Assembly: GCF_020387415.1 (NCBI RefSeq)
Contig: NZ_JAGWCB010000007.1
Span: forward strand, 186,001 to 250,000
DNA length: 64,000 nt
Source: Ideonella benzenivorans
GTDB lineage: Bacteria; Pseudomonadota; Gammaproteobacteria; Burkholderiales; Burkholderiaceae_C
Reading direction: 5' to 3'
Positions 23,137-34,737 of the stretch are shown here, piece by piece. Both the position numbers and the translations under genes were made by a program. Position 1 is the stretch's first letter; the number at the start of each line of letters is the position of its first letter. The notes under the pieces are model-generated. The model was not told the DNA's origin. It was given only the letters and a program-made list of their open reading frames with translations, and did not search any database.

Positions 23137-24224
23137 ATGTTGCGCCGTGTTTCGCTGCCCTTGTGGTCCGTGCTGATCGGTGGGGCGGCCGGTCTGCCGC
23201 TGGCGGCCCATGCCACCAACGGCTATTTCTCGCACGGCTACGGGGTCCAGGCCGAAGGCATGGCCGGCCCCATTTCTTCATCCCCGAGTTCGGCTGGACG
23301 CACCAGTGGGACGACCGGCTCAGCCTGGGGCTGGCGGTCTATGGCAATGGGGGGATGAACACCCAGTACAACCACAGCCCGTTTGAGGCCTTCGGGGTCA
23401 CCGGCCACACCGGGGTCAACCTCGAACAGCTGTTTGTGTCGCCCTCGGTGGCCTATCGGCTCAATGACAGCCATACCGTCAGCCTGGCGCTGAACCTGGC
23501 CCACCAGCGCTTCTCGGCCCAGGGCATCGGGCCCTTCGCGGCGGCCTCGGCCGCGCCGGAGGCGCTGAGCGACCAGGGCACCGACACCTCCACCGGCGTG
23601 GGCGTGCGGCTGGGCTGGATCGGGCAACTGAGCCCGCAATGGCGGGTGGGGGCCACCTGGTCGTCCAAGATCTCGGGCCGCTTTGACAAGTACAAGGGCC
23701 TGTTCGCCGACCAGGGCGGCTTCGACATCCCGGCCAACTACGGGGTCGGCCTGGCCTACCAGCCCACCGAGGCCTGGACCCTGGCGGCCGATTACCAGGT
23801 CATCCAGTACAGCCGTGTGGGCGCGGTGGGCAACCCGCTCAGCCGGCTGGCGGCCGGGGTGCCGCTGGGCGCCTCGGACGGGCCGGGCTTTGGCTGGCGG
23901 GATGTGAAGGTGATCAAGCTGGGGGCCGCCTACCAATGGCAGCCGAACCTGACCCTGCGGGCCGGCTACAGCCACGCCACCCAGCCCGTGCCCGCCAGCG
24001 AGACCTTCTTCAACATCCTGGCGCCGGGCGTGGTGCAGCACCATGTGACCGTCGGCTTCACCTGGAAGGCAAACCGGGCGGACAACTGGAGCGCCTTCTA
24101 CGGCCATGCCTTCAACCGCACGGTGGCGGGCCAGCAATCCCTGCCCACCGCCTTCGGCGGTGGCGAGGCCCAGGTGCATCTGAAGGAAAACACCCTGGGC
24201 GTGGCCTGGGGCCGCGCCTTCTGA
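23137..24224 (+). pseudogene. FadL/OmpP1-type outer-membrane transporter, internally deleted and frameshifted
   Basis: The ATG at 23137 opens a signal peptide and the FadL start ATNGYFSHGYGVQAEGMAG. The frame then changes: past about 23268 the coding frame is the one reading HFFIPEFGWTHQWDDRLSLG onward to a normal FadL C-terminus at 24224. Intact family members have about 70-80 residues between these two parts, including the plug segment with the ATNPAG motif. Both the missing segment and the frame change are visible, so a full protein cannot be made. Intact homologues import long-chain fatty acids or aromatic hydrocarbons. Confidence 0.82.
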
Positions 24225-24286: not shown

Positions 24287-24372
24287 CGCCGACAATAGGG
24301 ATGAGGACCCGGTCCGAGGAAGTCGCTTTCCTGGTGAACGGGGGCGCGGTCACTTTCCCCAGGGCGGATTCC

Positions 24373-25314
24373 ATGGCGACACTCTTATGGCTTCAAACCG
24401 GAGCCTGCGGCGGCGATTCCCTGGCCATCCTGAGTGCCGAGTCGCCCAGCCTGGAGCAGCTGCTGCAGGACAGCGGCGTCGAGTTGCTGTGGCATCCGTC
24501 CCTGTCGCATGGCCACGCCCGCCGGTTCGACCGGCTGGTTGACGACATCCTGTCCGGCCAACAGCCGCTGGACATCCTGTGCGTCGAGGGCAGCATCGTC
24601 ACCGCGCCACGCGGCACCGGGCTGTACGACCCCTACCGCGGCCGCGGCAAGATGGACCTGGTGCGCGACCTGGCGGCTCGCGCCGACGTGGTGGTGGCCA
24701 TGGGCACCTGCGCCGCGTTCGGCGGGGTGCATGCCGCGCCGCCCAACCCTTCGGACTGCATCGGCCTGCAGTTCGACCATGCCCAGCCGGGCGGGCTGTT
24801 GCCGGCCGACTGGCGGTCCCGCGGCGGCTGGCCGGTGGTCAATGTGGCCGGCTGCCCGGCCCATCCGCACACCATGACCCAGACCCTGGCCACGCTGGCG
24901 CTGGGCCTGCCGCTGCCGCTGGATGGCCTGAACCGGCCGGCCTCGCACTTCAGCACCGTGGTGCACCAGGGCTGCACCCGCAACGAATACCACGAGTACG
25001 ACATCGAGGACAGCCAGCCCGGTGGCCGGGCCTGCCTGTTCTTCAACCTGGGGTGCCAGGGCCCGCTGACCCAGGCGGTCTGCAATGCCGACCTCTGGAA
25101 TGGCGTCAGCAGCAAGACGCGCGCAGGCGTGCCGTGCTTTGGCTGCACCTCCCCCCAGTTCCCGCGCGATGGCGACCTGTTCCGCACCGAAAAGATGGGC
25201 GAGGTGCCCATCCGTTTGCCGCTGGGGGTGGAGCGCCCACGCTACATGGCTTACAAGAACCTGGCCCGCGCGGCGGCACCACAACGGGTGCGTGACAAGA
25301 AGATGAAGCCCTGA
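24373..25314 (+). CDS. hupU: H2-sensing type [NiFe] hydrogenase small subunit (HupU/HoxB-like)
   Basis: This 313-residue protein is read from the ATG at 24373 (MATLLWLQTGACGGDS), which matches regulatory hydrogenase small subunits. An in-frame ATG at 24301 would add 24 unrelated residues. It lacks the twin-arginine signal of respiratory uptake enzymes, so it is cytoplasmic. Cluster-binding motifs are visible: GACGGDS and MGTCAAFGG, NVAGCPAHPHT, HQGCTRNEYHEY, FFNLGCQGPLTQAVC and VPCFGCTSP, enough for three Fe-S clusters. It pairs with the large subunit 27 bp downstream. Members of this group sense H2 rather than supply energy. Confidence 0.9.
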   Translation: MATLLWLQTGACGGDSLAILSAESPSLEQLLQDSGVELLWHPSLSHGHARRFDRLVDDILSGQQPLDILCVEGSIVTAPRGTGLYDPYRGRGKMDLVRDLAARADVVVAMGTCAAFGGVHAAPPNPSDCIGLQFDHAQPGGLLPADWRSRGGWPVVNVAGCPAHPHTMTQTLATLALGLPLPLDGLNRPASHFSTVVHQGCTRNEYHEYDIEDSQPGGRACLFFNLGCQGPLTQAVCNADLWNGVSSKTRAGVPCFGCTSPQFPRDGDLFRTEKMGEVPIRLPLGVERPRYMAYKNLARAAAPQRVRDKKMKP

Positions 25315-25341
25315 GCCACGGCTTGGGTAGCATCCCCGGAC

Positions 25342-26883
25342 ATGGCCCGCATTGAACTCAACGTCGATCTCAACCGCGTCGAAGGCGATCTCAGCATCCA
25401 GGTGACGCTGGAGGACGGCGTGGTGGTGGCGGCGCGCACCCAGGGCACGATGTACCGTGGCTTCGAGCAGATCCTGCTCGGCCGCGCGCCCCGCGACGCG
25501 ATGGTCATCACGCCCCGGGTCTGCGGCATCTGCGGCACCGCCCACCTCTACGCCGGCGTGCTGGCGCTGGAGCAGATCTGGTCCACCCCGGTGCCGCCCC
25601 AGGCCACCCGCATTCGCAACCTGTGCCTGATCGCCGAAGGGCTGCAGAATGACCTGCGCCAGACCTTTCTGTTCTTCGCGCCGGACCTGTGCCACCCGCG
25701 GTACGCGGCCGACCCGCTCTACGCGCCGATGCTGCAGGCCTTCGAGCCCTTCAAGGGCACGGTCTACCGCGAGACGCTGGCCATCACCCGCAAGGTGCTG
25801 CAGATCGTCGCCCACTTTGGCGGCCAGTGGCCGCACTCGTCCTACATGCTGCCCGGCGGCGTGGTGACGCCGGTGGACACGGCCCGGCTGATTGCCTGCC
25901 GCAGCATCCTGGGCGATGTGCAGCGCTGGTACGAGCAACGGATCATCGGCGGCCCGCTGGACGACTGGCTGGCGCTGGCCTCGGCCGACGCCCTCTGGGG
26001 CTGGCTGGCGCGTCCCGCGGCGGCGGACGCGGCGCTGGGCCTGCTGACCCGCTTCCTGCGTGCCCGCGGCCTGGCCCGGTTGGGCGCGGGCACGCCGCAC
26101 ATGCTGTCCTTTGGCACCTGGTGCGATCCCGAACGCTGGGGGCCCGGGGCCTCGGCCCATGTGCTGCCGGCCGGCTTCTACGATGGCGAGACCGGCGCCA
26201 TCGAGCGCCTGGATCCCGCGCAGATCTCCGAGCATGTGCGGCATTCCTGGTTTCGGCCGTATGAAGGGGGGCGCCACCCCTTCGACGGCGAGACCGTGCC
26301 CGATTACCAGCCCGGCACCGACCGCTACACCTGGGCCAAGGCCCCCCGTTACGGAGGCCGGGTGGTGCAGACCGGCCCGCTGGCGGAACTGGTGATCGCC
26401 GGCGACACGCTGGCGCGCGAGTTGCTGGCCTGCGAAGGCAGTGGTGCCTGGCTGCGCCAGTTCGCCCGGGTGCGCCACATTGGGGTGGCGCTGCGGCAGG
26501 CCTGGCGCACGCTCGACGAACTGGCGGCCGACCTGGGCAGCCCCCACTTCGTGCCGCCTGCGCCAGGCACCGAGGTCGATGGCGACGGGGCCGGCCTGCT
26601 GATGGCGGCCCGCGGTGCCTTGGGCCACTGGGTGCAGGTACGCGACGGGGTGGTGCACCGCTACCAGATCATCACCCCCACGGGCTGGAATGCCTCGCCG
26701 CGCGACAGCGCCGGCGTGCCCGGCCACTGGGAAGCCAGCCTGGTGGGGCTGCGCGTCGCCGACCCCGAGGACCCGATCGAGATCGGGCACCTGATTCGCT
26801 CGCACGACCCCTGCCTGGTCTGCACGGTGCATTTCGTTGGCGCCGACGGGGCGCCCGCGGGGGCGTTGAGGATCGGGACATGA
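25342..26883 (+). CDS. hupV: H2-sensing type [NiFe] hydrogenase large subunit (HupV/HoxC-like)
   Basis: This 513-residue protein binds the Ni-Fe centre through RVCGICGTAH (Cys61, Cys64) and DPCLVCTVH (Cys491, Cys494, His497). The N-terminus (MARIELNVDLNRVEGDL) is HupV-like. After His497 there are 16 more residues (FVGADGAPAG and onward), which looks like a cleavable extension. Well-studied regulatory hydrogenases are reported not to need C-terminal cleavage, yet here a maturation protease gene overlaps the stop by 4 bp, so processing may occur. Confidence 0.9.
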   Translation: MARIELNVDLNRVEGDLSIQVTLEDGVVVAARTQGTMYRGFEQILLGRAPRDAMVITPRVCGICGTAHLYAGVLALEQIWSTPVPPQATRIRNLCLIAEGLQNDLRQTFLFFAPDLCHPRYAADPLYAPMLQAFEPFKGTVYRETLAITRKVLQIVAHFGGQWPHSSYMLPGGVVTPVDTARLIACRSILGDVQRWYEQRIIGGPLDDWLALASADALWGWLARPAAADAALGLLTRFLRARGLARLGAGTPHMLSFGTWCDPERWGPGASAHVLPAGFYDGETGAIERLDPAQISEHVRHSWFRPYEGGRHPFDGETVPDYQPGTDRYTWAKAPRYGGRVVQTGPLAELVIAGDTLARELLACEGSGAWLRQFARVRHIGVALRQAWRTLDELAADLGSPHFVPPAPGTEVDGDGAGLLMAARGALGHWVQVRDGVVHRYQIITPTGWNASPRDSAGVPGHWEASLVGLRVADPEDPIEIGHLIRSHDPCLVCTVHFVGADGAPAGALRIGT

Positions 26884-27374
26884 CCTCCCTTGCGGTCGAC
26901 GCCGCGCCCCATCGCGTGCTGTGCTTTGGCAACGAGTTGCATGGCGATGATGGTTTCGCGTTGGCCGTTGGCCGGCAACTGGCGGCCCAGGGCCTGCCGG
27001 CCGGCTGGAGCCTGCACGAGGTTGGCACCCGCGGGCTGGACGCCCTGGCGCTGCTGCTTGACTGCCAGACGGCGCTGCTGCTGGACGCCGCGCAGCCCGC
27101 GGGCCAGCCCGGGCGCCTGGCTGAGCTCGACCCGCGGACCGTGCCGGTCGAAACCGGTCTGGCCGGCCATGCCATGGGCCTGGGTTACACCCTGCAGGCG
27201 CTGCGCAGCAGCGGGGCCCCCTGGCCCGCACTGCGCCTGTTGACCGCCGAGATGGCGGCGGTGCAACCGTACCGGCTGGGTCTGTCGGCGGCGGTGCAGC
27301 AGGCTGTGGCCCCCGCGGTGCAGCAGGTGCGGGCCTGGATGCAGGCGCAAGACACGGTGGAGCCGGCGCCATGA
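26880..27374 (+). CDS. Hydrogenase maturation protease (HyaD/HybD family)
   Basis: This 164-residue protein has the family motif CFGNELHGDDGF. Candidate nickel-ligand residues Glu19, Asp69 (LLLDAAQP) and His97 (AGHAMGLG) match the spacing of Glu16, Asp62 and His93 of HybD. These proteases clip the large-subunit C-terminus once nickel is inserted. It overlaps the large-subunit gene and the next gene by 4 bp each, so it is made with them. Its presence in a sensor-type hydrogenase operon is unusual. Confidence 0.85.
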   Translation: MTSLAVDAAPHRVLCFGNELHGDDGFALAVGRQLAAQGLPAGWSLHEVGTRGLDALALLLDCQTALLLDAAQPAGQPGRLAELDPRTVPVETGLAGHAMGLGYTLQALRSSGAPWPALRLLTAEMAAVQPYRLGLSAAVQQAVAPAVQQVRAWMQAQDTVEPAP

Positions 27375-30025
27375 AGCAGCACGACGCCCTGCTGTCGTTC
27401 TGGCCCGCCGAGCCGGCCGTCCCGGCCGGCGATGCCCTGGACCTGCTGCGCACCGAACTCGAGGCCCTGCGCCTGGCCAATACCGCGTTGCAGGACGAGC
27501 TGACGCATGGCGCGGAGCAGGCGGACACGATGCTGCTGGCGCTGGAGCGCCAGCGGGCCGAACTGCAGGCGGCGCGCGACCGTGAACAGGCCCTGTCGGC
27601 CTTTGCCGAACGCATCATGGAGACGGTGGGCGGGGCGGTGCTGGTGCTGGACCCGTCCGGGCGGCTGCGGCACGGCAACGCGCATTGCACCCAGGTCCTG
27701 GCGCCGCTGGCGGAAGGCGAGAGCATCGACGCCCTGCTGCATCCTGCCGACCGCGCCGCCCTGGCGGCCGCGTTGCCGGCCCTGCCATGGGCCGTGCACT
27801 CGGTGCTGTTCGAGCAGGTGCGGCGTCAGGGACGCTACCGGGCCGAACACCGGCTGGCCATGCGCGATGGCAGCCACCGCTACCACCTGGTCGAGGGCGC
27901 AGTGCTCTACAGCGCCCAGGGCAAGGAGGAAGGCGCGGTCATCACCTGCACCGACATCTCGGTGCTCAAGCGCAAGGAGCAGGAGCTGCTGGCCAGCGAT
28001 GCCCGCTTCAACCAGGCGGAGAGCGTGGCCCGGGTGGGCAGCTGGGAGCTGGACCCGCTCAGCGAGACCATGAGCTGGTCGGCCGAGACCCATCTGCTGC
28101 TGGATGTCCGGCCCGAGGTGTCGCCCAGCCTGGCCACGCTGTTCACCGCGATCCACCGCGAGGACCGGCTGGAGACGGCCCAGGCCTTCATGCTGGCGTT
28201 GAGCGCCCACGAGCCCTGCGACCTGGAATTCCGCATCGACACGGCCGACCAGTCGGTGCGCTGGGTCCACCTGCGGGCCAGTACCTTCGTGGCCGCCGAC
28301 CGGACGCCCCGCAGCGTGGGCACGGTGCAGGACATCACCGCCCGCCGCCATGCCGAGGATGAGCTGCGCCTGGCCGCCACGGTGTTCGACAACAGCCTGA
28401 ACGCGGTGCTGATCGCCGATGCCGAGGGCCGCATCCGCAAGATCAACCGCGCCTTCACCGCCATCCTGGGCTATGAAGAGGCCGACGTGCTGGGCCGCCA
28501 GCCCAATGTGATGAAGTCGGGCCAGCACCCGCCCAGCTTCTACCAGGACATGTGGGGCCAGTTGCACGAACGCGGTCACTGGGAGGGCGAGATCCTCAAC
28601 CGCCACCGCGACGGCCACATCGTCTCCATCTGGCAGAACATCACCACCGTGCGGGGTGGGGCGGGCGAGATCAAGTACTACATCGGCATCTTCTCGGACA
28701 TCACCGAGCAGAAGGCCCAGGCCCAGCGCATCCACCAACTGGCCTATTACGACGCCCTGACCGGCCTGCCCAACCGGGCCCTGCTGATGGACCGCTGCCG
28801 CCAGGCGCTGGCCCGCGCGCGGCGCTCGCACGGGCTGCTGGCGGTGCTGTTCATGGACCTGGACCGCTTCAAGCACATCAACGACAGCCTGGGTCACCCG
28901 GTGGGGGATGCGCTGCTGCAGGCGGTCGGGATCCGGCTGCAGCAGGTGGTGCGCGACACCGACACCGTGGCCCGCCTGGGCGGCGATGAGTTCGTGGTGC
29001 TGCTGGAGAACATCGACTCCCTGCTGGATGTCGAGGCCAGCGCGCACCGCATCATCCAGGCCTTCCACGAGCCCTTCGTGCTGGAGTCGCACACGCTGTC
29101 GGTGGCCACCACCATCGGCGTGAGCCTCTATCCCGAGCATGGTGCGGATGTCACCAGCCTGTTCAAGTTTGCCGACCTGGCGCTCTACCAGGCCAAGGAG
29201 ACGGCCCGCGGCGGCTACCGGCTGTTTGAGCCGCACCTGAACGAGCTGGCGCTGGATCGGATGCGGCTGGAGAACGACCTGCGGCGCGCACTGGAGCGCG
29301 ACGAGTTCGTGCTGAACTACCAGCCCGTCTATGCCCTGGGCGATGGCCGGCTGGTGGGCGCCGAGGTGCTGCTGCGCTGGCCCCACCCGGAGCTGGGGCC
29401 GGTCTCGCCGGCCACCTTCATCCCGGTGGCGGAGGACAGCGGCCTGATCATCCCGATCGGGGCCTGGGTGCTGGAGACGGCCTGCCGCCAGGCCCGGGCC
29501 TGGCTGGACGCCGGGTTGGAGATCGGCGTGATCGCCGTCAACGTGGCCGGCCTGCAGATCCAGCGCGGCGACCTGGCCGAGACGGTGGCTCGCGTGCTGC
29601 AGCACACCGGCTTGCCAGCGCAGCGGTTGGAGCTGGAGATCAGCGAGTCCTACATCATGCGGCATGCCGAGCGCGACCTGCAGCAGCTGGCCGATCTGCG
29701 CGCCCTGGGCGTGGCGCTGGCCATCGACGACTTCGGCACCGGACAGACCTCGCTCAGCCACCTCTGGCGCCTGCCGCTCAACAAGCTCAAGGTGGACCGC
29801 GCCTTCATCAAGGACCTGGAGCGTGACACCGCCGGTGCCACCGTGACCCGCGCCATCATCGGCCTGGGCCATGGCCTGGGCTTCGTGGTGCAGGCCGAGG
29901 GGGTGGAGACCGACGCCCAGGCCGAGTTCCTGCGCGCCCACAGTTGCGACCTGGTGCAGGGCTTCCGCTTCGCTCGCCCGCTGCCGGCGGAGGAATTCGC
30001 GCGCCGCTGTCCCTCGCGTTCGTGA
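27371..30025 (+). CDS. PAS-GGDEF-EAL cyclic-di-GMP protein coupled to the sensor hydrogenase
   Basis: This 884-residue, apparently soluble protein has an N-terminal coiled-coil-like stretch (residues 20-75) and about three PAS/PAC units (about 75-195, 210-325, 330-450). GGDEF is intact at about residue 537, with an inhibitory-site RDTD five residues before it. The EAL domain has EVLLRW at about 665, LEISES, DDFGTG at about 786 and AEGVET, so catalytic residues are kept. It may make and break cyclic-di-GMP. It overlaps the protease gene by 4 bp and stands where a PAS histidine kinase (HupT/HoxJ) sits in classical H2-sensing systems. Confidence 0.92.
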   Translation: MKQHDALLSFWPAEPAVPAGDALDLLRTELEALRLANTALQDELTHGAEQADTMLLALERQRAELQAARDREQALSAFAERIMETVGGAVLVLDPSGRLRHGNAHCTQVLAPLAEGESIDALLHPADRAALAAALPALPWAVHSVLFEQVRRQGRYRAEHRLAMRDGSHRYHLVEGAVLYSAQGKEEGAVITCTDISVLKRKEQELLASDARFNQAESVARVGSWELDPLSETMSWSAETHLLLDVRPEVSPSLATLFTAIHREDRLETAQAFMLALSAHEPCDLEFRIDTADQSVRWVHLRASTFVAADRTPRSVGTVQDITARRHAEDELRLAATVFDNSLNAVLIADAEGRIRKINRAFTAILGYEEADVLGRQPNVMKSGQHPPSFYQDMWGQLHERGHWEGEILNRHRDGHIVSIWQNITTVRGGAGEIKYYIGIFSDITEQKAQAQRIHQLAYYDALTGLPNRALLMDRCRQALARARRSHGLLAVLFMDLDRFKHINDSLGHPVGDALLQAVGIRLQQVVRDTDTVARLGGDEFVVLLENIDSLLDVEASAHRIIQAFHEPFVLESHTLSVATTIGVSLYPEHGADVTSLFKFADLALYQAKETARGGYRLFEPHLNELALDRMRLENDLRRALERDEFVLNYQPVYALGDGRLVGAEVLLRWPHPELGPVSPATFIPVAEDSGLIIPIGAWVLETACRQARAWLDAGLEIGVIAVNVAGLQIQRGDLAETVARVLQHTGLPAQRLELEISESYIMRHAERDLQQLADLRALGVALAIDDFGTGQTSLSHLWRLPLNKLKVDRAFIKDLERDTAGATVTRAIIGLGHGLGFVVQAEGVETDAQAEFLRAHSCDLVQGFRFARPLPAEEFARRCPSRS

Positions 30026-30046: not shown

Positions 30047-30132
30047 TGCATCGGGGGGAAGCCCGACTCACCCCCGAGCGGGTAAACGCCTAACCTCTCC
30101 GGCAAAACCTTGGCAACAAAAAGGTCTTGCCC

Positions 30133-32217
30133 ATGAGAGAAGTTAACAGCCCCCGCATCCGGCGCTACGGCCTCATCGCCGCCGCCGTGGTGGCCGTGGT
30201 CGGTGCGGCCGCGGTCTGGATGGCCATGCCGCCCAGCGTCGAGAACAAGGACCCTGGCTTCGGCGCCAAAGCCGATGACGCCCTGGTGGCCCAGGGCCGC
30301 TACGTGGCCCAGCTGGGCGATTGCGTGGCCTGCCACACCGCCCCGGGTGGCGGCGAGATGGCCGGTGGTCGCCCGCTGGAGACCCCGTTCGGCACCATCT
30401 ACTCGACCAACATCACCCCCGACGCGCAGCACGGCATCGGCCAGTGGACCTACGGCCAGTTCGACCGCGCCATGCGCCATGGCGTGTCGGCCGACGGGCA
30501 TCGGCTGTATCCGGCCATGCCTTACCCGTCGTACGCCAAGATGACTGACGCGGACATGAAGGCCTTGTGGGCCTACCTGCGCCAGGGGGTGCAGCCGGTG
30601 GCCCAGGCCAACCCGCCGCTGGGCATGCACTTCCCGTTCAACCAGCGCTGGGGCCTGGCCTACTGGGATGCGGTGTTCGCCGACAAGACCCCCTTCGTGC
30701 CCAACCCGCAGAAGGACGCGGTCTGGAACCGCGGCGCCTACCTGGTGCAGGGCCTGGGCCACTGCGGCGCCTGCCACACGCCGCGCGGCATCGGCTTCCA
30801 GGAGCAGGCCATGAGCGACATGGGCTCCAAGGGCAAGCTGTTCCTGTCGGGCGCCCAGGTCGAGCACTGGAATGCGGTGGAGCTGCGGGACCTCTGGACC
30901 GTGCCGGACACCGTTGAGATGCTCAAGACCGGGCAGAACCGCTTTGCCACCGCGTCGGGCAGCATGACCGACGTGATCCTGCACTCGACCCAGCATGTGA
31001 ACGACCCGGACCTGGTGGCCATCGCCACCTATCTGAAGTCGCTGCCGTCGGACAAGCCCAAGACCGCCGCGCCAGCACCGGTGGCGGCCAGCACCGAAGC
31101 GCCGGCCAAGCTGTTCACCACCGCCGGTGGCCTGGGCTACACCCAGTTCTGCACCGACTGCCACCGCCCGAGCGGCAGCGGCGTGAAGGGCGTGTTCCCG
31201 GCCCTGGCCGGCAACCCGACGGTGGCGGCCAAGGACCCGGCCACGCTGATCCACATCACGCTGACGGGCTGGAAGACCGCCTCCACCGGCGCCCATCCGC
31301 GGGTCTACACCATGCCGGCCTTTGCCCGGCTCAGCGATGCCGAGATCGCCGAGATCCTGAGCTTCGTGCGCGAAAGCTGGGGGCAGGGCGCCGGTGCGGT
31401 GGCGGCGGCGGACGTGGCCGCAGCGCGCAAGAACCTGGACCCGAAGATCGACAAGTCGGCCTTTGAGACGCCGCGCCTGTCCAAGCTGCTGGCAGAGCCC
31501 AACGCGGCCCAACTGGTGCGCGGCATGCGGCTGAACTCGGAAACCCACATCCTGCTGCCCAAGAACGTTGGCAATGACCTGAACTGCACCTCCTGCCACC
31601 TGAATGCGGGGACGGTGGCCGATGGCTCGCCGTATGTGGGCATCACCGCCTTCTTCCCCTCGTATGCGCCGCGGGCCGGCAAGGTCATCACCATCGAGGA
31701 CCGCATCAACGGCTGCTTCCGCCGCTCGATGAACGGCAAGCCGCTGCCGCCCGATTCGGACGACATGAAGGCGATGGTGGCCTACTTCGACTGGATGAAG
31801 GGCAACACCAAGAAGGAAGACAAGGTGCCCGGCCGCGGCGTGGGCAAGGTCGACCCGAAGATCGTGCCCAACCTGGCCAACGGTGAGAAGGTCTATGGCG
31901 CCCAATGCGCGGTCTGCCACGGTGCCAATGGCGAAGGCCTGAAGGACGCCGCCGGCCGCACCGTCTACCCGCCGCTGTGGGGCGACCGCTCCTTCAACAT
32001 CGGTGCCGGCATGGCCCGCACCTACACCGCGGCCGCCTTCGTCAAGCGCAACATGCCCATCGGCTTCCATGAGAAGTTCCCGCTGGGCCAGGGCGGCCTG
32101 TCGGATCAGGATGCGGTGGACGTGGCCGAGTACTTCAGCCACCAGCCCCGCCCGGACTTCCCCGACAAGGTGAAGGACTGGCCGAAGGACCCCAAGCCCA
32201 AGGATGCGCGCTACTGA
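30133..32217 (+). CDS. tsdA: Five-haem cytochrome: dehydrogenase-type cytochrome fused to thiosulfate dehydrogenase TsdA
   Basis: This 694-residue protein starts at the ATG at 30133, 8 bp after AAGG. An N-terminal membrane segment (about residues 12-34) anchors or exports it. Residues about 45-420 carry three c-type haem motifs, CVACH (64), CGACH (211) and CTDCH (340), and resemble the cytochrome subunit of membrane alcohol/gluconate dehydrogenases. Residues about 450-694 are TsdA: CTSCH (485), CAVCH (592), and Cys528 in INGCFRRSMNG at the place of the cysteine axial ligand of the active-site haem. TsdA joins two thiosulfates to tetrathionate, or the reverse. Usual TsdA proteins have two haems. 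Confidence 0.9.
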   Translation: MREVNSPRIRRYGLIAAAVVAVVGAAAVWMAMPPSVENKDPGFGAKADDALVAQGRYVAQLGDCVACHTAPGGGEMAGGRPLETPFGTIYSTNITPDAQHGIGQWTYGQFDRAMRHGVSADGHRLYPAMPYPSYAKMTDADMKALWAYLRQGVQPVAQANPPLGMHFPFNQRWGLAYWDAVFADKTPFVPNPQKDAVWNRGAYLVQGLGHCGACHTPRGIGFQEQAMSDMGSKGKLFLSGAQVEHWNAVELRDLWTVPDTVEMLKTGQNRFATASGSMTDVILHSTQHVNDPDLVAIATYLKSLPSDKPKTAAPAPVAASTEAPAKLFTTAGGLGYTQFCTDCHRPSGSGVKGVFPALAGNPTVAAKDPATLIHITLTGWKTASTGAHPRVYTMPAFARLSDAEIAEILSFVRESWGQGAGAVAAADVAAARKNLDPKIDKSAFETPRLSKLLAEPNAAQLVRGMRLNSETHILLPKNVGNDLNCTSCHLNAGTVADGSPYVGITAFFPSYAPRAGKVITIEDRINGCFRRSMNGKPLPPDSDDMKAMVAYFDWMKGNTKKEDKVPGRGVGKVDPKIVPNLANGEKVYGAQCAVCHGANGEGLKDAAGRTVYPPLWGDRSFNIGAGMARTYTAAAFVKRNMPIGFHEKFPLGQGGLSDQDAVDVAEYFSHQPRPDFPDKVKDWPKDPKPKDARY

Positions 32218-32259
32218 TCCTCTGAAACTCCGTCAGGCCACTGAGACAACGGCCTGTTC

Positions 32260-32290
32260 GGCCGGTCCCCGCGAGGGGGCCGGCCTTTTT
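32260..32290 (+). terminator. Intrinsic terminator of the tsdA fusion gene
   Basis: An 11-pair stem (GGCCGGTCCCC with GGGGGCCGGCC, one G-T pair) closes a GCGA loop and is followed by TTTTT at 32286-32290. It lies 43 bp past the tsdA stop. It is the clearest intrinsic terminator in the window. The next gene starts only about 20 bp beyond it. Confidence 0.92.
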
Positions 32291-32311
32291 GCCTGTGCTA
32301 GCGTGCCCGGC

Positions 32312-34087
32312 GTGTTGCGCTCTCTCGTCCTTCCTTTCCTGATCCTGGCGGCGGCGGCCGGCGGGCCGACGCAGGCCCGGGCCGACACCGTGCGCATCGC
32401 CGTGCTGGCCTTCCAGGGCTCCGAGCGGGCGGCCAAGGACTTCGAGCCCACGCTGGCCTACCTCGGCCGGGCCCTGCCGCAGCACCGGTTCGAAATGGTG
32501 CCGCTGGACCCGGACGGCATCGAGCAGGCGGTGCAGGCCCACACGGTGGACTTCGTGGTCACCAACCCCGGCGACTATGTGGACCTGGAGGCCGGCCAGG
32601 GCGTCACCCGGCTGGCCACGCTGGAAAGCAGCGACCACGCGGTGCCGACGGACACCGTGGGCTCCACCGTCATCGTGCCGAACCGGCCCGGCCATCCCAC
32701 CCGCTTCCAGGACCTGGCCCACCGCCGGCTGGCGGTGGTGTCGGACGACGCCTTCGGCGGCTGGCGCGTCATCTGGCGCGAGATGGTGGAGTCGGGTGTC
32801 GAACCCGAGCACCTGCAGGCCCTGGTGGTCACCGGCTTCCCGATGGAATCGGTGATCGAGGCGGTGCGCTCCGGCCGGGCGGCGGCCGGTGTGCTGCGCA
32901 CCTGCCTGCTGGAGGAGGAGATCGCCGAGGGCCGGGTGCGGCCGGACGAATTCGCGGTGGTGGCCGAGCGCACCCAGCCCGGCTTCCCCTGCCGGCTGTC
33001 CTCGCGCCTGTACCCTGACTGGCCCTTCGCCCGCCTGGCCGGCACGCCGCCGGAGCTGGCCAAGGCGGTGACGGCCAGCCTGCTGACCATGCCGGCGGTG
33101 GATGGCCGGGCCTGGACCGCACCGCAGGACTACACCACCGTCCACGCGCTGTTCCGCGAGCTGAAGATCGGCCCCTACGCCTACCTGGCCCACACCACGG
33201 TGAGCGGCTTCGTCCGCGGTCACTGGCAGTGGTTCGTGGTGGCGGCCCTGGCGGTGCTGTGGTGGGTGTTCCATGTGGTGCGGGTCGAAACCCTGGTGCG
33301 GCGCCGCACCGCCGAGCTGACCCGGGCCATCGAAGGCCGTGAGGCGGCCGAGCGCGTGGCCCGCCAGCACCGCGAGGAGCGCGACCAGTTCTCCCGCCTG
33401 GGCATCCTGGGCGAAATGGCCTCCAACATCGCCCACGAGCTGAACCAGCCGCTGGCCGCCATCACCAACTACGCCGAGGGCATCACCCGCGTGATCGACG
33501 CCGGCCGCGTCGATCCGGCCTTCATCCGCAACGGCGCGCGCGGCATCGCCGGCCAGGCGGAGCGGGCCGGGGTCATCATCCGCCGCATCCGCGGCTTCGT
33601 GCGGCGGCGCGAGGTGAAGCTGGAGCACCTGAGCGTCAACGAGGTGGTGCGCGAAACGCTGGCGCTGTTCGAGGGCCAGGCCCTGCTGCGCGGGGTGCCG
33701 CTGTCGGTGCAGCTGGCCGAGGGCCTGCCGCGCATCGCGGCCGACCAGATCGAGGTCGAGCAGGTGCTGCTCAACCTGCTGCAGAACGCGCTGGACGTGA
33801 TGGAAGGCAGCCCGAACAAGGCGCTGGGCATCACCGTGGCCACCCGCCGCACCGAGGACAACGTGGAGGTGGCCGTGCGCGACCACGGCAGCGGCCTGAC
33901 ACCCGAGGTGCAGGCCCACCTGTTCGATCCCTTCTTCACCACCAAGCCGCAGGGCCTGGGCCTGGGCCTGTCGATCTGCCGCACCATCGTCGAAAGCCAT
34001 GGCGGGCACCTGTGGGCCACCAACGAACCCGAGGGCGGGCTGAGCATGCGCTTCACCCTGCCCGTTCTTGCGGAGGACACCCCGTGA
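32312..34087 (+). CDS. Sensor histidine kinase with PhnD-like periplasmic domain (TtrS-like)
   Basis: The protein is about 591 residues from the GTG at 32312; a GTG at 32303 is an alternative, and no good ribosome-binding site helps choose. It has a signal peptide, then a periplasmic phosphonate-binding-type domain (about residues 25-290: VLAFQGSERAAKDFEPTLAY, VVTNPGDYVDL, DAFGGWRVIW). One membrane helix follows (WFVVAALAVLWWVF), then HisKA with the phospho-histidine in ASNIAHELNQPL and HATPase motifs (NLLQNALDVM, DHGSGL, GLGLGLSICRTIV). TtrS tetrathionate sensors have this layout, and the adjacent TsdA would form tetrathionate. The ligand is inference. Confidence 0.85.
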   Translation: MLRSLVLPFLILAAAAGGPTQARADTVRIAVLAFQGSERAAKDFEPTLAYLGRALPQHRFEMVPLDPDGIEQAVQAHTVDFVVTNPGDYVDLEAGQGVTRLATLESSDHAVPTDTVGSTVIVPNRPGHPTRFQDLAHRRLAVVSDDAFGGWRVIWREMVESGVEPEHLQALVVTGFPMESVIEAVRSGRAAAGVLRTCLLEEEIAEGRVRPDEFAVVAERTQPGFPCRLSSRLYPDWPFARLAGTPPELAKAVTASLLTMPAVDGRAWTAPQDYTTVHALFRELKIGPYAYLAHTTVSGFVRGHWQWFVVAALAVLWWVFHVVRVETLVRRRTAELTRAIEGREAAERVARQHREERDQFSRLGILGEMASNIAHELNQPLAAITNYAEGITRVIDAGRVDPAFIRNGARGIAGQAERAGVIIRRIRGFVRRREVKLEHLSVNEVVRETLALFEGQALLRGVPLSVQLAEGLPRIAADQIEVEQVLLNLLQNALDVMEGSPNKALGITVATRRTEDNVEVAVRDHGSGLTPEVQAHLFDPFFTTKPQGLGLGLSICRTIVESHGGHLWATNEPEGGLSMRFTLPVLAEDTP

Positions 34088-34737
34088 CCCCGAGCGCCGA
34101 CCCGAGCGAGCTCAGCAGCCCGCTGATCCTGATCGTCGATGACGACGAGGCCATGCGCAGTTCGATGGCCTTTCTGTTCGCCTCCATTGGCCTGGCGGCG
34201 CAGAGCTTTCCGGATGCGGCCAGCTTCCTGGCCGCGCTGCCGCCCGAGGGCGCGCAGCGGCCCGGCGCGCTGGTGCTGGACGTGCGCATGCCCGGCATGA
34301 GCGGGCTGGAGCTGCAGCGGCTGCTGGCCGAGCGCCACTTCCCGCTGCCCATCCTGATCGTCACCGGCCACGGCGACGTGCCGATGGCGGTGCAGGCCCT
34401 GAAGGCCGGGGCCTACGACTTCATCGAGAAGCCCTTCAAGGAGCAGTACCTGCTGGACATGGTGGGCGCGGCGATCCGCGTCTCCGAGGAGACGCTGGCC
34501 CGGCAAAGCCGCCAGCGCTCCATCGCCGAGCGCCTGGCCCGCCTGGGCCGGCGCGAGCGCGAGGTTCTGGAGGGCATCCTGACGGGCAAGCTCAACAAGG
34601 TCATCGCCTATGAGCTGGACCTGTCGGTCAAGACGGTGGAGGCTTACCGGGCCTCGATCATGCTGAAGATGGAGGCCGGTTCGCTGGCCGAGTTGGCCAG
34701 GATGGTCCCGACGTCCGGCTGGGGCGAACCGTCCTGA
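34084..34737 (+). CDS. FixJ/TtrR-type response regulator
   Basis: This 217-residue protein starts with a GTG that overlaps the kinase stop (GTGA). The receiver domain (residues about 12-130) has the acidic pair VDDDEAM, the phosphorylation Asp in LVLDVRMPG, VTGHGDV and the Lys of EKPFKEQY. A LuxR/NarL-type helix-turn-helix follows (LGRREREVLEGILTGKLNKVIAYEL, then SVKTVEAYRASIM; shown here in parts of one segment). It is the partner of the TtrS-like kinase. Its last 80 bp overlap the convergent hydroxylase gene. Confidence 0.9.
   Translation: MTPSADPSELSSPLILIVDDDEAMRSSMAFLFASIGLAAQSFPDAASFLAALPPEGAQRPGALVLDVRMPGMSGLELQRLLAERHFPLPILIVTGHGDVPMAVQALKAGAYDFIEKPFKEQYLLDMVGAAIRVSEETLARQSRQRSIAERLARLGRREREVLEGILTGKLNKVIAYELDLSVKTVEAYRASIMLKMEAGSLAELARMVPTSGWGEPS

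Follow-up and report, generated by a model that had tools for sequence, protein, structure and literature searches.

Gene content of the operon

The window analysed here is a stretch of 64,000 nucleotides from Ideonella benzenivorans (assembly GCF_020387415.1, contig NZ_JAGWCB010000007.1, positions 186,001 to 250,000). It carries a four-gene unit on the + strand (24373-30025) that encodes the small and large subunits of a NiFe hydrogenase, a maturation protease and an 884-aa PAS-GGDEF-EAL protein, which we call the partner. An earlier note on this DNA had described the unit as a hydrogen (H2) sensor wired to cyclic dimeric guanosine monophosphate (cyclic-di-GMP) instead of a histidine kinase. 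We compared the operon with its relatives to see how far that description holds. Its features are as follows.

24373..25314, + strand: NiFe hydrogenase small subunit, 313 aa (Pfam PF01058, Oxidored_q6, and PF14720, NiFe_hyd_SSU_C)
25228..25311, + strand: small-subunit C-terminal tail (VERPRYMAYKNLARAAAPQRVRDKKMKP), proposed docking surface (outside the Pfam domain; recurs in relatives)
25342..26883, + strand: NiFe hydrogenase large subunit, 513 aa, group 2c clade (Pfam PF00374, NiFeSe_Hases; tree; nickel ligand motifs)
26833..26880, + strand: large-subunit C-terminal extension, 16 residues past the last ligand His (absent from 27/27 group 2b HoxC)
26880..27374, + strand: hydrogenase maturation protease, 164 aa (Pfam PF01750, HycI; NCBIfam TIGR00072 above its cut-off)
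27371..30025, + strand: partner protein, 884 aa, with helix, PAS, PAS, PAS, GGDEF and EAL (Pfam, NCBIfam, structure model)
27425..27625, + strand: partner N-terminal helix, residues 19-85 (67 residues), proposed hydrogenase-docking element (AlphaFold model; common to partners of either output)
27635..27955, + strand: PAS1, residues 89-195 (PAS-like topology in the model; without a Pfam call here)
28040..28333, + strand: PAS2, residues 224-321 (Pfam PAS_3; model)
28379..28711, + strand: PAS3, residues 337-447 (nearest PDB PAS domains are the redox sensors MmoS and NifL)
28742..29209, + strand: GGDEF domain, RDTD inhibitory site and GGDEF motif intact (Pfam PF00990; motifs)
29273..29980, + strand: EAL domain, catalytic residues intact (Pfam PF00563; motifs)

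The small-subunit start at 24373 (MATLLWLQTGACGG...) is supported because the open frames of several relatives begin at the same residue; a second in-frame ATG lies at 24301. Read by eye, the small subunit has no twin-arginine export signal. The large subunit carries the nickel ligand motifs RVCGIC and DPCLVC, and its 16-residue extension is presumably removed during maturation. Two overlaps of exactly 4 bp each join the last three genes, at 26880-26883 (large subunit and protease) and 27371-27374 (protease and partner). All of this agrees with the earlier note, which had listed the four genes, the 4-bp overlaps, the missing export signal and the maturation protease (here matched by PF01750 and TIGR00072). 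It had also called the GGDEF, inhibitory-site and EAL residues of the partner intact, and the motifs are all present.

The EAL motifs of the partner are EVLLRW, VNVAG, LEISES, DDFGTG, LKVD, AEGVE and VQG. By these residues the partner is predicted to be a dual GGDEF-EAL enzyme. We modelled its residues 1-460 with AlphaFold from a 10-sequence alignment (mean predicted local distance difference test score (pLDDT) 81.7, predicted TM score (pTM) 0.42). The model has one unbroken helix at residues 19-85 (pLDDT 57-72), followed by PAS1, PAS2 and PAS3 linked by helices. In two relatives (L057 and L058) Pfam calls the region homologous to PAS1 as PAS_4.

The two best PDB matches to the PAS3 sequence are MmoS (3ewk, E 6.3e-23) and NifL (2gj3, E 1.2e-16). 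The PAS3 model superposes on 2gj3, a NifL domain containing flavin adenine dinucleotide (FAD), with TMt 0.90 and a root-mean-square deviation of 1.2; when the whole model is ranked, the longer multi-PAS chains FixL, PpsR and DosP stand above 2gj3. PAS3 may perhaps hold a flavin, judging from these sequence and model matches. The PAS3-GGDEF-EAL part matches the NCBIfam model DibA at 685 bits, under its cut-off of 980. The partner thus resembles the PAS-GGDEF-EAL enzymes DibA and DosP in the arrangement of PAS3, GGDEF and EAL, and the redox PAS sensors NifL and MmoS in the fold of PAS3. It differs from all four in its N-terminal helix, which was found beside the hydrogenase and hardly elsewhere.

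Relatives and class of the hydrogenase

Relatives were gathered by large-subunit similarity alone, with the own genome counted in each set. A window-type hydrogenase was present in 4 of 250 family genomes (at least 63 per cent identity), 7 of 399 order genomes (E 1e-105 or better) and 7 of 398 phylum genomes (E 1e-105); the family and order sets overlap. At E 1e-30, 41 of the 250 family genomes matched, mostly with the HoxC type at about 40 per cent identity. From named genomes we took the best 80 of 586 confirmed candidates, and three pattern matches among viral contigs yielded none that was confirmed. The collection came to 97 loci with the window, or 91 once six duplicates were removed.

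We built a tree of these 91 loci with 27 HoxC rows, using a quick search with Shimodaira-Hasegawa approximate likelihood-ratio (SH-aLRT) supports only and no bootstrap. The 91 loci split from the HoxC rows with a branch support of 100. Clade A (45 rows, support 99) includes the window and Methylobacter; clade B (45 rows, support 98) includes many deltaproteobacterial and acidobacterial metagenome-assembled genomes (MAGs); L151 lies outside both. The window large subunit groups in a single clade (SH-aLRT 99) with eight Methylobacter loci, one of them Methylobacter tundripaludum SV96.

The M. tundripaludum hydrogenase is called group 2c (PMC4853749), and the same label for Methylobacter appears in PMC12810054. 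HydDB names group 2c 'diguanylate cyclase-linked (putative)', with a role given as undetermined and possibly H2 sensing via cyclic di-GMP (PMC5037454). The L2 motif consensus of the group is printed as SFDxCLVCTVH in PMC4853749; the window and its sisters have SHDPCLVCTVH, one difference away, and the same paper judges a Thiomargarita protein with SHD most consistent with 2c. The window operon thus belongs to a group already named, though still unproved, and not to a new class. With HydDB group 2c it shares the clade with Methylobacter, the linkage to a GGDEF-EAL gene and, by reading, a cytosolic location. Unlike the HydDB description, most of the relatives gathered here are linked to kinases and not to cyclases, and the helix, the Rieske addition and the exchange of outputs described below are absent from what we found of the group 2c accounts.

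The earlier note had assigned the large subunit to the HupV/HoxC type of classical H2 sensors and proposed its phylogeny as a check. That assignment does not hold: the window large subunit is 39 per cent identical to HoxC of the same genome, lies in a separate clade and carries the 16-residue extension. All 27 group 2b HoxC proteins end at the last ligand His, and the large subunit of the Ralstonia eutropha regulatory hydrogenase also lacks a C-terminal extension (PMC8229454). A classical HupUV/HoxBC (group 2b) reading is excluded by the tree, by the extension together with a protease, and by the GGDEF-EAL partner.

Group 2b HupUV/HoxBC and the window do share a cytosolic dimer without an export signal, a helix and PAS partner next door (HupT/HoxJ in group 2b) and a small-subunit C-terminal tail. 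Aligned with HoxC of the same genome, the window CGIC and LFF segments give an Ile/Phe pair at the gas-channel positions, as in group 2b; we take these positions to form the narrow part of the channel. The two groups differ in clade (support 100), in the extension with its protease and in output, and their helices alone are not recognisably homologous. The closest solved structures for both window subunits are of the group 2a enzyme Huc (HucSLM, M. smegmatis), with 7utd the best match to the small subunit and a small-subunit tail that can be aligned with that of the window. Huc is an energy enzyme feeding menaquinone, unlike the sensor that we propose for the window. No regulatory hydrogenases were found among the 44 PDB matches to the window small subunit.

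The genome (4.49 Mb, 21 contigs) encodes other hydrogenases outside the window. Contig 9 has an uptake-type hydrogenase, hyp genes and a HoxA-HoxB-HoxC-HoxJ set, and contig 13 has a group-3d-like enzyme. The labels HoxA, HoxJ, hyp and 3d follow gene order and do not come from a classifier.

Partner proteins and their outputs

A gene with kinase, GGDEF or EAL domains adjoins the hydrogenase in 78 of the 79 unique loci whose sequence runs on for at least 1500 bp downstream, the window among them. This is the gene-neighbourhood survey that the earlier note had called for, and it backs the claim that this hydrogenase and the GGDEF-EAL protein go together: the nearest relatives have kept the pairing, and the helix described below is largely specific to it. 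With four loci on shorter contigs added, 82 partners could be classed, 56 as kinases and 26 as cyclic-di-GMP enzymes. The idea that a cyclic-di-GMP protein takes the place of a histidine kinase thus applies to the branch of the window and not family-wide, where 56 of 82 partners are kinases. The tree as built requires at least six changes between kinase and cyclic-di-GMP outputs, with nine rows without a readable partner excluded from the count. This suggests that the signalling output behind this hydrogenase has been exchanged repeatedly.

All 26 cyclic-di-GMP partners have an intact GGDEF motif and inhibitory site. Their EAL domain is absent in three, degenerate in one (L075) and cut by the contig end in one (L110). 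Control of the cyclase is for this reason slightly more likely than control of the phosphodiesterase. The degenerate case is from Sedimenticola hydrogenitrophicus (L075, 7984-10620), where GGDEF is kept and the EAL catalytic residues are lost.

A Rieske [2Fe-2S] domain or gene with intact CxH...CxxH ligands occurs in 17 loci. It stands before the helix in 16 of these (11 cyclic-di-GMP and 5 kinase partners), and two further loci (L073 and L106) have lost the ligands. The remaining case, in a SAR324 MAG (L087, 3819-4157), is a stand-alone 112-aa Rieske gene between protease and kinase. The window partner has no Rieske domain. The history of the domain on the tree takes at least four changes, whether gains or losses. 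At least 14 kinase partners have a core that begins 48-105 residues past the helix start and so leave no room for a PAS domain (L092, whose partner is split, was set aside). PAS domains were accordingly rejected as a general coupling route, as was the Rieske domain, found in 17 loci only.

Other variants touch the protease and the kinases. In five loci (L061, L090, L097, L100, L112) the maturation protease and the sensor kinase form one open frame, so that the kinase of the sensor is fused to the very protease expected to mature that sensor. Six loci (L113, L116, L126, L143, L145, L149) have hybrid kinases with at least one receiver domain and a separate receiver gene just downstream, and larger phosphorelays may there receive the H2 signal. 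Extension length and protease were compared in the 88 loci that have 600 bp or more of downstream sequence: no protease was detected in 8 of 9 with an extension of 7 residues or fewer, and one was present in 71 of 79 with a longer extension. Seven loci (L120, L121, L124, L129, L133, L144, L150) have 0-5 residues past the last His and no protease found; proteolytic maturation appears to have been lost in these members of the family.

The N-terminal helix of the partners

The one element common to partners of either output is an N-terminal helix of about 60 residues. Our first count placed it in 82 of 82 partners; this came from an iterative profile and was hence biased, and we replaced it with held-out tests. 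With a profile built from the 26 cyclic-di-GMP partners, 54 of the 56 kinases scored at least 7 bits and 32 of the 56 at least 20. The best of 48 non-partner open reading frames (ORFs) with kinase or cyclic-di-GMP domains scored 6.9 bits, and the six top other ORFs among 7285 were cut or split partners.

Tests within each clade gave a similar picture. In clade A, training on 17 kinases recovered 23 of the 24 partners held out, with scores of 25-63 bits against 8.7 for the best other ORF, and training on 23 cyclic-di-GMP partners recovered 17 of 18 kinases, with 15-59 bits against 6.9. Both profiles missed only L092; its N-terminus is encoded by an ORF of its own, which scored 78 and 55, and the locus was excluded from clade A training and from the N-terminal tree. 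In clade B, training on 3 partners found 38 of 38 at 33-88 bits (best other 7.5), and training on 38 found 3 of 3 at 70-74 bits; the best other score was 5.6 once clade A partners, which reach 12.5, are set aside.

Ranked against everything else in their genomes, the operon partners came first in all 16 genomes searched; these contain 17 operons, of which 11 are not in the profile. In the own genome the helix occurs in the window partner only, the next match scoring 13.7 bits. Of the 250 family genomes, the 4 that have the helix are those with the window-type hydrogenase; the 399 order genomes agree in the same way (7 genomes), apart from one false match.

Divergence of the N-terminal module also goes with that of the large subunit (Mantel r 0.91, a value that none of 2000 permutations reached). 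Two kinase partners, from Paucibacter and Roseateles, group with the window's cyclic-di-GMP partners in both trees (N-terminal support 98/96) and not with the remaining kinases, the pattern expected if the output was replaced behind a kept N-terminus.

We compared the helix with HoxJ, using 21 usable N-termini from 27 group 2b loci. Extending the comparison to the first PAS residues gave 90 per cent probability, and helix plus PAS gave 98.5 per cent, mainly from the PAS; HoxJ aligns in register with the helix end and PAS1 (98.5 per cent). HoxJ of the own genome has no significant match to the window-type helix. HucM was absent from the PDB matches listed for the helix profiles (the best 60 of 148, and 2 of 2).

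Proposed mechanism and alternatives

We propose, with a probability of roughly 0.62, that the group 2c [NiFe] hydrogenase is a plug-in H2 sensor that docks on the partner helix and drives interchangeable outputs, here cyclic-di-GMP. The operon protease would process the hydrogenase, and a cytosolic dimer of small and large subunits would form. This dimer would dock on the 67-residue partner helix, probably through the small-subunit C-terminal tail. H2 would reduce the NiFe site and the iron-sulphur clusters, and the change would travel along the helix and the PAS stack until the GGDEF-EAL end responds and the cyclic-di-GMP level shifts. Hydrogenase and helix of the same kind precede kinases in relatives, so we regard them as the sensor and GGDEF-EAL as the output on the window's branch. 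Docking, H2 sensing, and the path and direction of the signal are what we infer from the gene arrangements, profiles and comparisons above.

That the tail meets the helix is suggested by analogy. The tail is kept in the relatives compared (40 and 47 loci in partly overlapping sets), the exceptions being L109 and the cut L124, with a partial tail in L151. The C-terminal domain of HoxB in R. eutropha binds HoxJ (PMC8229454), and in Huc the lobes are attached to HucM, an alpha-helical scaffold with a model for residues 20-79 (PMC10017518).

Several observations weigh against the proposal. The helices of the two clades are hardly alike: of the 41 partners in clade B, clade A profiles lift 0, 0 and 2 above background, so a single common origin of the clade A and clade B helices is not established. 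The one false helix match in the order genomes is a coil-like protein with no hydrogenase within the surrounding 14 kb, and a mixed helix profile also picks up coils in the PDB, a designed one at E 3.3e-4 and others more faintly, as unrelated coiled coils can resemble one another. For pairs of partners with different outputs the Mantel r falls to 0.45 (helix alone 0.34). Compared helix to helix, HoxJ and the window family reach only 9 per cent probability. One locus (L109) has room for a partner and lacks one; its small subunit looks broken. The output changes were counted on a quick-search tree without bootstrap. Since GGDEF and EAL are both intact in the window, the direction of the signal cannot be read from it. 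A multi-domain cytochrome c gene also starts about 100 bp downstream of the operon.

This cytochrome would suit an ordinary uptake enzyme, with the GGDEF-EAL gene merely co-transcribed or regulating the hydrogenase. The NiFe ligand motifs are present, and the closest solved relative is the group 2a uptake enzyme Huc. We nonetheless consider this explanation very unlikely, because the four-gene unit has no electron-transfer subunit, the cytochrome gene was not found near 14 relatives, a signalling partner stands in 78 of 79 loci and the partner N-terminus is inherited with the large subunit. The earlier note had named a HupT-type kinase elsewhere in the genome as the finding that would count against it. 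Such a kinase exists, in the HoxJ of contig 9; it adjoins its own HoxC and, as noted, lacks a significant match to the helix. That it is the true partner of the window hydrogenase is improbable in the extreme, given that the window hydrogenase belongs to another clade, that the helix in this genome is on the window partner alone, and that HoxC-type and window-type genes occur together in 4 of 4 family genomes holding the window type.

An electron relay deserves more weight, though we still judge it unlikely. Electrons from H2 would reduce a cofactor of the partner (a Rieske cluster in some relatives, perhaps a flavin in PAS3 in the window) and so switch the output, with the helix only holding the two proteins together. 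The 17 loci with intact Rieske ligands are in line with this, and so are the nearness of the window PAS3 to MmoS and NifL in sequence and that of its model to the FAD-containing NifL domain. The window partner, however, has no Rieske domain, the kinase partners without room for PAS mean that neither PAS nor Rieske is the general route, and PAS3-GGDEF-EAL may be a common chassis, as the sub-threshold DibA match indicates. Transmission through the helix is favoured by the existence of PAS-free partners, and the Rieske and flavin-like PAS domains point to a redox step added on some branches; the two can both be true.

Returning to the plug-in sensor, we hold its most general form tentatively, at a little under even odds: group 2c would be a universal H2 sensor in which the helix and not PAS couples, and any output behind the helix would be H2-controlled, be it a cyclic-di-GMP enzyme, a hybrid kinase or a Rieske-tagged form of either. 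The helix would then be a portable tag through which H2 could control any signalling enzyme joined to it. As far as we found, the literature has not settled how a hydrogenase that senses H2 signals to its partner protein, and the cyclic-di-GMP branch was only predicted in two 2016 papers (PMC4853749, PMC5037454). Among the matches listed from open-licence literature there was neither a characterised hydrogenase linked to cyclic-di-GMP nor a docking helix, nor a sensor hydrogenase with a Rieske link. The pairing itself was already predicted by group 2c; added here is a helix-marked partner with swapped outputs, an element to cut and graft. If the proposal is correct, a 60-residue helix marks the interface in 82 loci from several phyla (by record titles), and coupling can be tested by deletion and grafting. 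H2 would then join the signals acting on cyclic-di-GMP, and through it perhaps on biofilm or motility, in hydrogen- and methane-using bacteria.

Flanking genes

None of the genes flanking the operon in the window had a match (E 1e-20) in the sequence around 14 relatives, so the target of the signal is not readable from synteny. Upstream lies a FadL/OmpP1-like porin (23163-24224) with a signal-peptide-like start just upstream in another frame, either a broken gene or an assembly error. Downstream (30127-34737) are the multi-domain cytochrome c, of SoxA/TsdA type, then a phosphonate-binding-type sensor kinase and a LuxR-type response regulator, which together resemble a tetrathionate set.

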